Shown in pieces: positions 53,842-56,723 of a stretch of 64,000 nucleotides of DNA (positions within the stretch are counted from its first letter, which is position 1; the number at the start of each line of letters is the position of its first letter). The position numbers were made by a program, and so were the translations under genes. Below the pieces are notes generated by a model. That model saw nothing but the letters and a program-made list of their open reading frames with translations. It did not search any database and had not been told where the DNA came from. The stretch covers positions 124,001 to 188,000 of the forward strand of contig CASFDK010000044.1 in the NCBI GenBank assembly GCA_949293415.1. The letters run 5' to 3'. The DNA comes from an uncultured Verrucomicrobiota bacterium. GTDB taxonomy: Bacteria; Verrucomicrobiota; Verrucomicrobiia; Opitutales; Intestinicryptomonadaceae.

Positions 53842-54228
53842 ATGTCGGAAGAAATCCCCCAAGAAAAACCCTCCGTTTCGAACGGAGCAGCTCCCGTTTC
53901 GCCCGCGCCCGCAGCGGCTGCGCCCGCAACGCCCGTTTCCGCTCCCGCGCCCAAGCCCGCTGCGCCTGCGGTCGAACTGCCAAAGGCGAAGTTCGTAGCT
54001 GTGGCGAAGCCCGCAACGCCCGTTTCCGCTCCCGCGCCCAAGCCCGCTGCGCCTGCGGTCGAACTGCCCAAGGCGAAGTTCGTAGCTGCGGCGAAGCCCG
54101 CATCGGTTACCGCGCCGAAAAATGTTGTTAATGTCGAAGAAAAAACGTCGATACTTTCGGTAGCGGTTGACGTTGTCGCCGCCGCGGTTGCCGTAGCGTT
54201 TGCGGTACTGATTATTCTCGACATCTAA
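53842..54228 (+). CDS. Small Ala/Pro-rich membrane-anchored protein with tandem repeats
   Basis: The 128-residue protein has no N-terminal signal. Residues 10-100 are Ala/Pro/Lys/Val-rich and disordered, including two copies of a 29-residue repeat (residues 29-86; ATPVSAPAPKPAAPAVELP then KAKFVA). A single C-terminal helix (SILSVAVDVVAAAVAVAFAV plus LIILDI) would anchor it with the N-terminus in the cytoplasm, or the reverse. No enzymatic domain is recognised. It is 13 bp upstream of trxA and probably shares its transcript. Composition resembles TonB-like or periplasm-spanning linkers. Confidence 0.75.
   Translation: MSEEIPQEKPSVSNGAAPVSPAPAAAAPATPVSAPAPKPAAPAVELPKAKFVAVAKPATPVSAPAPKPAAPAVELPKAKFVAAAKPASVTAPKNVVNVEEKTSILSVAVDVVAAAVAVAFAVLIILDI
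53926..54099 (+). repeat. Two 87-bp in-frame direct repeats
   Basis: Copies at 53926-54012 and 54013-54099 differ at only two bases, one of them changing Val to Ala. Each encodes 29 residues of the small protein. Confidence 0.95.
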
Positions 54229-54241
54229 CAAAGGAAAAGTT

Positions 54242-54559
54242 ATGTCAAAAGTTATCCACTTGAACGAAAAAAATTTCGACGAAACGGTTTCCTCATCGAA
54301 GCCCGTTTTGGTTGACTTTTGGGCACCGTGGTGTGGACCGTGCAAAATGTTGGGTCCGACGATTGACGCGCTCGCCGAAGAAGTTGACGACTCCGTCGGC
54401 GTGGCGAAAGTCAATGTCGACGAATCCCCCGACCTTGCCCAGCGTTTCGGTATAAGTGCGATTCCCACTCTGCTTATATTCAAAAACGGGCAACCCGTAG
54501 GAACAGCAGGCACAAGATCGAAAGACGACCTAAAAAAACAACTACTCCTCTACGTCTAA
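54242..54559 (+). CDS. trxA: Thioredoxin
   Basis: The 105-residue cytoplasmic disulfide reductase has the canonical active site WAPWCGPCKMLGP, the buried Asp in VLVDFWAPW, and the cis-proline loop ISAIPTLLIF followed by KNGQPVG. A good ribosome-binding site (AAAGGAA) precedes the ATG. It follows the small repeat protein by 13 bp. Confidence 0.97.
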   Translation: MSKVIHLNEKNFDETVSSSKPVLVDFWAPWCGPCKMLGPTIDALAEEVDDSVGVAKVNVDESPDLAQRFGISAIPTLLIFKNGQPVGTAGTRSKDDLKKQLLLYV

Positions 54560-54582
54560 TTTTTTTATATCTGTGATGCTTC

Positions 54583-54742
54583 GCGGCAACTATAGTTGCC
54601 GCTTTTTGTTTATAAGCAGGCTGCAGCCTGCACGGCTACGGAACTTCGTTCCTTCTTGTGATACTGCGGAAGCAACTATAGTTGCTTCCTTTTGTGTATA
54701 AGTTCGCATTGCGTTGCAATGGCTTTGTCAGCTCGAACTTAT
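54583..54742. repeat. Array of perfect DNA palindromes
   Basis: Within 160 bp lie: GCGGCAACTATAGTTGCCGC (54583-54602, perfect), GCAGGCTGCAGCCTGC (54616-54631, perfect), GGAAC-TTC-GTTCC (54640-54652), a 22-bp perfect palindrome at 54668-54689 sharing GCAACTATAGTTGC with the first, CATTGC-GTT-GCAATG (54707-54721), and an enclosing 9-bp stem ATAAGTTCG/CGAACTTAT (54698-54742). The two CAACTATAGTTG palindromes are each followed by a T-rich stretch and TATAAG, so the array looks like two diverged tandem units of about 85 bp. No open frame is credible. They are between trxA and the fourth PEP-CTERM gene. Confidence 0.85.
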
Positions 54743-54805
54743 TCTGTTATTTGCCGAAACGTTCGAAATCTCGTTGTTTCTCTCGGCTTTTCTGTAATAC
54801 AGCAC

Positions 54806-54836
54806 AAAAAAAGCTTCGCGGTTGCGAAGCTTTTTT
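54806..54836. terminator. Bidirectional rho-independent terminator between trxA and PEP-CTERM 4
   Basis: AAAAAGCTTCGC-GGTT-GCGAAGCTTTTT has A/T runs on both sides and serves both convergent genes. Confidence 0.9.
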
Positions 54837-54859
54837 GAATTGTTGAATTTTCAAACGCC

Positions 54860-56599
54860 CTACTTGCGGCGGCGGTAGATTGCCAAGCCAATCGCAATCG
54901 CCCCAAAAATCATTGCCCATTCCGCTGGTTCGGGGACGTAAATTAGGTAGTTGTTCGAATCAATCGACCATTTGCCGCCAGTGAGTTCGTCGCCGTTGAT
55001 GTCGTAGCCCTTAAACGTGAATTTTTTATTTGAGTCGATCGTATAAATTCCACTTTCGTCAAGCTTTGTGGCATCGATGGATGAAATTTTCACGAGACCG
55101 TTTTCGAAGTCTCTGAAAACTACGTCTAAGTAGGAATTGTCTTTTTCTTCGTCGAGGGAAAACCAAGCGATTGTCAAGCCCGCCGCGCCGTTGAGGTCGA
55201 AAATGATTTCGCAATTTTGTCCGTTGTACTGCTGTTTGAAGAGTATACCTGAAAAGTTGTACGATTCGCCCGCCGCAAGCTCTACGACGTTGTTCCTTGC
55301 GCGAACAACCTTGAATCGTCCGGTGAACGAGTCGCCGCCGTCGAGCTTCACGGTAGAAAGCGAACTGTTGTCCTTAAAGGTAATGACATTACCGTCTATC
55401 TTCGAAGTTTTGTCTACGTGCAACATCGCATTGGCGGCAACGCCGAGACTGCGCAAATCTTTGAACGAAATCGTACTTCCGTTGAGAACGCTCATATTGC
55501 CCGTGATGTTTGCGACGAAAGTCTTGTTCTCGGTTGCGTTGAGAACAAGCTTAGAAGCGTCGATTAAAACCGTACCGCCGATTTGCGAAACATCAGAGTC
55601 GCCGTCGAAGGATTTCGTGTTGAGGGTCATCAACGCGCCGTTCTTGAGCGTCAGGCTGCCGCCGTTGACAACGCCGAAATTCGCCGAAGACGCGGACGAG
55701 CCGATTGTCAGCGTGCCGCCGTTCATCTCGAGGTTCGCGTTGTCCACGAACGAATTTTTCGCCGCAACGACGCTGCCGCCGTTGATGTACAAGTTCGCGC
55801 CCGCGGTAACCGACATGCCGCCCGCAGTGGTCATATTGCCGGTCGATTCCACAAACGCGTCGGTATCCGTCAAATGCAGGGAAGCTTCGGAATTGGTAGA
55901 CTGAATGCTCGTGCCCGAAATATTCACATCGCCTTTGACGATGAACTTGGAATCTTCGATGATCGGCTTGGAGTTGTCGCCGTTATATCTGCCCTTAACC
56001 GTGAGGCTATTGGCATTTACGGTAATGTTCGTACCGATTGAGAAGATTCTGCCGTATTGGCCATAGGGATTTTGTGTGTCGAAATAATTTCCATCTCTCG
56101 TGTAAAGGTCTATGGAAAGACGCTGGGCGGTATTGTTGACAGTGCCTTTTACATTTGGCATTGCCGTCTCGAGGTAATAGGAGGACGATGTAGTAGTGTA
56201 TTTCTTTTCTCCATTATCATCCGTCCATTCAAAGGCATTGAAACTGAACATAGAACCGCTTGACGATGTAATTTCGCCCATGCCAAGAGAATCATTGAAT
56301 ATCATATGGTAGTTAGCGTGAACCCCCTTACCGCCAACAGAGTACAAAAACATATCGACTCTTGCGACCCCGGAGCTGTCTTTCGGAGGGTTCATATTGA
56401 TGTAATAGTCACTCCAAGTACCTGCAGCAACTTCGTCATTACTGCGCGAATCGTCTTTAAAAACATATTGCCGATCATCTCCCGAGGGAAGATCTTTGCG
56501 GTTCACAATACTCGTATAACCGCCGAGATCAACGTAGTTAAGGGCGAACACCTGCGTTGCGAACGCGGCTGCGGAAAGGGCTAACAACAATTTTTTCAT
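54860..56599 (-). CDS. PEP-CTERM cell-surface protein 4
   Basis: The 579-residue exported protein has a signal peptide (MKKLLLALSAAAFATQVFA). The frame is open 29 codons upstream but without a signal. The body consists of beta-helix-like repeats (VNGGSLTLKNGALMTLNTKS, ANLYINGGSVVAAKNSFVDN, ANLEMNGGTLTIGSSASSAN) typical of autotransporter passenger-like surface proteins, then KWSIDSNNYLIYVPEP and the anchor AEWAMIFGAIAIGLAIYRRR. It is a longer, distant relative of the other three. Two GTAAAC half-sites (56724-56736) lie 125 bp upstream. Confidence 0.85.
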   Translation of the reverse strand: MKKLLLALSAAAFATQVFALNYVDLGGYTSIVNRKDLPSGDDRQYVFKDDSRSNDEVAAGTWSDYYINMNPPKDSSGVARVDMFLYSVGGKGVHANYHMIFNDSLGMGEITSSSGSMFSFNAFEWTDDNGEKKYTTTSSSYYLETAMPNVKGTVNNTAQRLSIDLYTRDGNYFDTQNPYGQYGRIFSIGTNITVNANSLTVKGRYNGDNSKPIIEDSKFIVKGDVNISGTSIQSTNSEASLHLTDTDAFVESTGNMTTAGGMSVTAGANLYINGGSVVAAKNSFVDNANLEMNGGTLTIGSSASSANFGVVNGGSLTLKNGALMTLNTKSFDGDSDVSQIGGTVLIDASKLVLNATENKTFVANITGNMSVLNGSTISFKDLRSLGVAANAMLHVDKTSKIDGNVITFKDNSSLSTVKLDGGDSFTGRFKVVRARNNVVELAAGESYNFSGILFKQQYNGQNCEIIFDLNGAAGLTIAWFSLDEEKDNSYLDVVFRDFENGLVKISSIDATKLDESGIYTIDSNKKFTFKGYDINGDELTGGKWSIDSNNYLIYVPEPAEWAMIFGAIAIGLAIYRRRK

Positions 56600-56723
56600 A
56601 ACAATCTTTCTGGGTGTGCGGGGTTGGGGATAATGTGCGGGGTAAATTTCGTAGAACAGGTTTGTTAGTAAGTTAAAAAAACACAAAAATGCAGACTTGC
56701 AACCATTTTTTTCGCCTTTTTTG

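Follow-up and report, generated by a model that had tools for sequence, protein, structure and literature searches.

The region directly behind trxA in the window, by which we mean the whole 64,000-nucleotide stretch analyzed here, carries two units of a palindromic repeat that is dispersed through its genome (G000, a 2.32-Mb draft in 52 contigs, 94.8% complete). We read this family, with a probability of about 0.6, as a REP/BIME/BOX-like mosaic of intergenic palindromes that carries predicted portable terminators and often starts at stop codons. Its stems change in sequence while pairing is kept, a T-tract lies on one side of the main hairpin, many units begin at stop codons, three of the occupied sites are empty in congeners, and the layout is common to three species. 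From these observations we infer that the units are probably transcribed, that they may terminate transcription, and that they have probably been mobile.

The thioredoxin gene trxA (54242-54559, + strand, from the ORF list, with a WAPWCGPC motif) ends in a TAA codon at 54557-54559, which the array directly adjoins. The array extends from 54560, the first base after this stop, to about 54760; the original prediction had placed it at 54583-54742, an interval that contains the core of the array but misses its true start and end. The palindromes predicted after trxA, two of them with a common core, are there: GCAACTATAGTTGC is present in two exact copies (54586-54599 and 54672-54685), far above the expectation from dinucleotide shuffles of the window, which gave a mean of 0.12 matches at up to two mismatches and in 0 of 100 cases gave two. 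Both copies are held in a 31-nt direct repeat, 87% identical at a spacing of 86, which bears out the proposed pair of diverged tandem units. All modules are given on the + strand. Unit 1, which is cut off, opens with the 5' lead TTTTTTTATATCTGTGATGCTTC (54560-54582), a lead also seen in other G000 copies, followed by hairpin 1 (54583-54602), which reads GCGGCAAC-TATA-GTTGCCGC and then TTTTTGTTTA and is terminator-like on this strand. The unit breaks off, by comparison with complete copies, after a T-tract and TATAAG (54603-54616). The next module starts at GCAGG, and the G at 54616 is common to both. Unit 2 is complete and begins with the palindromic 5' module GCAGGCTGCAGCCTGC (54616-54631), which adjoins stop codons in other arrays. 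There follow a small hairpin, GGAAC-TTC-GTTCC (GGAACTTCGTTCC, 54640-54652), a TGTGAT block, and a hairpin 1 whose variant stem keeps its pairing (54668-54689; GGAAGCAAC-TATA-GTTGCTTCC, then TTTTGTGTAT). Hairpin 2 (54698-54742) has outer arms ATAAGTTCG and CGAACTTAT, inner arms GCATTG and CAATGGC, and a tip that varies between copies; the palindrome at 54706-54723 is imperfect by one bulged base. The stretch at 54743-54760 (..GTTATTTGCCGAAAC) forms the 3' end of the region common to other copies.

As had been noted, the flanking genes are convergent and have a terminator of their own: a PEP-CTERM-type gene, whose product suggests a verrucomicrobial host, lies on the - strand (54860-56686), and a separate terminator-like hairpin with a T-tract (54807-54836) lies between the two genes, outside the repeat. 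The + strand of 54560-54760 has a folding energy of -66 kcal/mol (z -4.45, with 0 of 200 shuffles as good), and the region folds better than 200 of 200 shuffles on both strands. The C-terminus of TrxA has about the same length as in 11 congeners. Just 5' of trxA, a short ORF (53842-54228) carries ATPVSAPAPKPAAPAVELPKAKFVA twice, an internal repeat in which A, P, K, and V are abundant.

A genome search for the core, which the original prediction had asked for, found GCAACTATAGTTGC at 22 places in G000, with 0 for a reversed-pattern control, and at none in the other 27 of the 28 genomes searched. A covariance model, R1, was built from 14 copies, which match it by construction; it gave at least 71 matches in G000 of at least 30.9 bits, 42 of them strong (at least 60 bits) and 29 weaker. 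Because the scan scored 150 of 1172 first-look candidates, further copies may be missing from this count. Many strong copies carry stems other than the GCAACTATAGTTGC core type. The unit starts with at least one small hairpin module or a TTTTATATCTGTG lead and continues with the TGTGAT block, hairpin 1 with its T-tract, and hairpin 2. With optional 5' modules, two hairpins, and two lead types, this is a mosaic in the manner of BIMEs, and tandem and truncated copies are also present. Hairpin 1 is a palindrome of 20-22 nt with a stem of 8-9 pairs and a TATA loop, the loop being TATA in 63 of the 69 copies that pass the hairpin filter, and hairpin 2 stands on GCATTG...CAATNGC. The commonest perfect hairpin-1 stems are GGCGCGGC (17/71), GCGGCAAC (15/71), and GGCGCGAC (5/71), and longer and imperfect forms occur besides. 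Several copies lie near contig ends, where a repeat that interrupts assembly would be expected to lie. Five modules occurred 12, 7, 4, 2, and 7 times in 400 kb taken from three G000 contigs, and no motif of the family stood out behind the stops of the 289 genes there. A sub-family B, recognizable by the second lead type, TTTTTATATCTGTGGTT, has a distinct spacer and is often arranged in tandem (G000 loci L011, L007, L008, L103, and L104); some of its loci are near GCTTCGC...GCGAAGC terminator-like hairpins.

The fold of hairpin 1 is kept while its stem changes. Across 50 distinct windows, one of which is a poor match, 95.2% of cells are paired versus 76.9% after shuffling, and the covariation score is 0.478 versus 0.180, with all slid controls at or below 0.138. 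Three of five covariation measures exceed the shuffles and two do not: pairs changed on both sides number 5 versus 4.0 (71 of 500 shuffles as high), and further pair types number 8 versus 8.5 (449 of 500 as high). These two counts indicate that a small number of inherited stem versions carry the covariation, and not many independent events. In hairpin 2, the base GCATT...AATNGC is present in 52 of 71 copies, and the 31 distinct tips contain 143 closing pairs, where shuffles average 22.9 and reach at most 42. Several copies have broken hairpin-2 outer arms, and these arms do not appear in the RNAalifold consensus.

Hairpin 1 is GC-rich and followed by a T-tract, the form of an intrinsic terminator, and this arrangement has a direction. 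At least five T occur in the nine bases after hairpin 1 in 40 of 41 type-A copies, and at least five A before it in 0 of 41; among the other 26 copies that pass the filter, 21 have the T-tract after and two an A-run before. In the window, both copies of hairpin 1 and the GGAACTTCGTTCC hairpin score as terminator-like on the + strand. The original prediction held that the array was something other than plain termination. It is indeed more than a terminator, being a repeat family beside a trxA that has a separate terminator-like hairpin, but in both units hairpin 1 has the look of an intrinsic terminator acting in one direction. Of the 19 sense copies of type A whose start is 0-4 nt from a stop (a set that includes C41:57404 and leaves out the type-B copy C9:16822, which is counted among the stop-adjoining starts below), 18 contain a terminator-like hairpin. 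Another terminator-like hairpin follows the element in four of these 19, one of them being the next unit of the same family, compared with 54 of 136 ordinary G000 genes that have one; this difference is not significant (Fisher p = 0.135). For the congener orthologues of trxA, guaA, and fabF, a terminator finder of our own making reports a terminator-like hairpin within 300 nt in 26 of 33.

Many sense copies start right at stop codons. In guaA the protein ends ...TIEWE and the junction reads tag|GCAGG, in fabF it ends ...LLFKKL and reads taa|CAAAGG, and in trxA it reads taa|TTTTTTT. We grouped matches of at least 34.2 bits by script into 54 array starts, a few of which (e.g., C9:1813) are really later units. 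The script puts 13 of these no more than 2 nt from a called stop; hand correction raises the number to 19 by adding six starts (C31, C39, C43:198143, C43:55177, the gene at C3:26486, and window unit 1) where the script had missed the first module or a short gene. The gene calls come from a caller of our own that overlooks short genes, among them the one at C3:26486, which looks ferredoxin-like by eye. A hand tally of 42 type-A arrays places 17 at 0-1 nt from a stop, two at 3-4 nt, and three at 8-30 nt; three are read into by the upstream gene and three lie more than 190 nt behind a sense gene. For up to 14 of the 42, a maximum in view of the missed short genes, the preceding gene was called on the opposite strand, so a role in a sense 3' UTR cannot hold for all. 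The called neighbors of the 42 strong copies, with strands relative to the unit, are +/- in 14 cases, +/+ in 10, -/- in nine, and -/+ in five, and four have no called downstream gene. Of 31 listed upstream proteins, 20 were submitted to Pfam and 17 matched; the families are unrelated and mostly metabolic, and include GMP synthase, IMP dehydrogenase, beta-ketoacyl synthase, and phosphoglycerate mutase. A GCAGG module also lies 6 nt downstream of a G000 tRNA-Leu gene (L099). We considered TRR or TA before the 5' module as a target motif and dropped it; non-coding modules follow A-runs and other bases.

Orthologous loci were read in congeners for trxA (11 of 12 found), guaA (11 of 11), and fabF (11 of 12), and the array is absent behind all three genes in the 11 orthologues read for each. 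The congener proteins end at about the same point, guaA identically and trxA and fabF within one or two residues. At E <= 0.01, R1 has matches in three of 28 genomes: G000, the congener G004 (seven), and G009 (two). We left the G009 matches out of the family, since by eye they resemble ordinary terminator hairpins that belong to a different repeat. The exact module GGAACTTCGTTCC is present in two of 14 genomes of the genus, G000 and G004, and the hairpin-2 motif in three of 54 relatives: these two and G028, which belongs to another genus of the same family. Both relatives have the same module order with stems of their own, GCCACGACTATAATCGTGGC in G004 and GGCGGGTT-GGTC-AACCCGCC, with a loop other than TATA, in G028. 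In the fetched loci R1 scores reach 37.6 bits in G028 and 34.9 in G004, although these loci had been preselected by motif or model and the scores are not independent. Some G004 arrays start at the stop of a PEP-CTERM-type gene or a few bases after it, and one unit (L112:2343) starts right behind a tRNA-Leu gene whose end was taken from an Rfam match. A test for motifs behind stops gave no signal of the G000 family in 400 kb of G004. In the congener G001, the motif found behind stops was not taken as a family member but as another repeat with a coding-like look (AAGGCAAATC...). Several loci of that genome (L142, L145, L151, and L155) carry a coding-like repeat, ATGAAAGGCAAATCTAAAAAATCAACCTATTCC..., in some cases near apparent tRNA genes by eye. 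In G001, guaA and fabF (L124 and L131) end in TGA followed directly by TTTGGCGAATGCTTTTGG..., a different palindromic element that is not general behind genes: one of five further matches in 400 kb lies near a called stop. A scan of a collection of 84,980 species, with a pattern that fits 25 of the 71 G000 copies and in a collection that may lack records of G000 or very near genomes, returned one match outside G000, in Treponema; it has no hairpins, and we take it as chance.

Several explanations compete with a stop-adjoining, terminator-carrying mosaic. The original prediction suggested REP/REPIN or miniature mobile elements, or a folded non-coding RNA, and held that a repeat family might point to a RAYT transposase. 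The broader suggestion holds insofar as the family consists of dispersed intergenic palindromes of the REP/BIME/miniature-element sort; such a transposase did not turn up in the G000 draft or in the other genomes of the genus searched, and a GTAG or CGTC tag is likewise lacking, the bases before the 5' module varying through the junction list. A classical REP/REPIN mobilized by a RAYT (Y1) transposase whose gene was lost, or is missing from a draft of 52 contigs and 94.8% completeness, would fit the palindromes, the 3'-end location, and the stop-codon contact, all of which match published REP behavior (PMC3733652). We nevertheless consider it improbable, because a search for PF01797 at E <= 0.001 came back empty for all 14 genomes of the genus, G004 and its own variant of the repeat among them; a control search found the domain in five of 14 named genomes. 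One of the 14 genus genomes, the single-contig G010, also gives no match to trxA, guaA, or fabF, so its absences mean little. Since both tag and transposase were sought and neither was found, we do not file the family as REP. G000 does encode two tyrosine recombinases, which we take to be XerC and XerD. Integron attC sites, too, are found after stop codons and vary at their tips; we set this identification aside, the upstream genes being dispersed and mostly enzymes of general metabolism.

That the units are purely selfish, MITE-like elements moved by an IS transposase, with hairpins and T-tracts incidental, is unlikely. The confinement of the exact core to G000 among the 28 genomes searched, the tandem and truncated copies, and the copies close to contig ends would all suit such elements, but neither terminal inverted repeats nor target duplications were recognized by eye in the listed copies, and a one-sided T-tract with pairing-keeping stems exceeds the needs of a MITE. 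Mobility of any kind can only be inferred, since we found neither a Y1 transposase nor, by eye, a target duplication, nor an empty site within the species. The stems that change with pairing kept, the nearly constant loop, and a layout common across genera (with a loop other than TATA in G028) could instead point to a cis-regulatory or small RNA family that serves a defined regulatory purpose, such as protein binding by a TATA-loop hairpin, and not to a mobile repeat. Occupancy is not conserved at the trxA, guaA, and fabF orthologues, the upstream genes are functionally unrelated, and Rfam gives no match at gathering score in the window and only tRNAs in nine loci (at 54500-54900 there are six matches, all below gathering score). 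Such a family is thus very unlikely.

Under the reading that we favor, a mosaic repeat with portable terminators, copies would come to lie between genes, often with the 5' end directly at a gene's stop codon, as for trxA in the window. In sense copies the unit would be transcribed as a 3' UTR, hairpin 1 would end transcription, and the hairpins may shield the 3' end of the mRNA. We propose that this non-autonomous repeat could persist because an insertion that settles after a stop and brings its own terminator would be harmless or mildly useful. A more specific version, which we consider less likely than not, is that these are RAYT-independent portable terminators: they may insert precisely at stop codons (and in G004 at a tRNA 3' end), leave the stop rebuilt or intact, take over the ending of the transcript, and persist across genera of one bacterial family, with stems replaced in each species and the fold kept. 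If this is correct, a repeat family can expand in a compact genome by settling at stop codons, where an insertion is cheap, and supplying a terminator in the process; the reason for the clustering of palindromic repeats at gene 3' ends would then become testable in a genus where the known REP transposase was not found.

In the literature that we searched, no published description was recognized as this repeat family, which is not proof of its absence from print. REPs and BIMEs are palindromic mosaics found mostly between convergent or unidirectional genes; REPs lie near 3' ends, their GTAG termini often supply the TAG stop, and the verrucomicrobium Opitutus terrae is rich in GTAG repeats (PMC3733652). 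RAYTs are described in PMC2817692, and REPIN persistence is modeled in PMC8049555. The G000 repeat resembles REPs and BIMEs as a dispersed palindromic mosaic close to 3' ends, likewise mostly between convergent or unidirectional genes, and differs in having no GTAG/CGTC tag, in the failure to find a Y1 transposase in the genus, and in its longer, multi-hairpin unit with a terminator-like hairpin. Pneumococcal repeats, of which PMC3049150 describes BOX, RUP, and SPRITE, offer other parallels. BOX elements are modular, variable in length, hairpin-rich, and overrepresented between convergent genes, with terminal inverted repeats likened to ISSpn2 (PMC3049150). Compared by build only, the G000 repeat is likewise modular, variable in length, and hairpin-rich; unlike BOX, it shows no recognizable terminal inverted repeats. 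SPRITE is an AT-rich repeat that resembles a Rho-independent terminator with an 18-bp duplex (PMC3049150). The G000 repeat is also dispersed and terminator-shaped, but its unit consists of several short GC-rich hairpins with alternative stems. Finally, ribosome stalling has been reported for E. coli REPs that lie no more than 15 nt from a stop codon (PMC12306157), and the G000 repeat similarly places a hairpin just behind the stop codon; it differs in that many of its junctions lie at 0-2 nt and its unit carries a T-tract.
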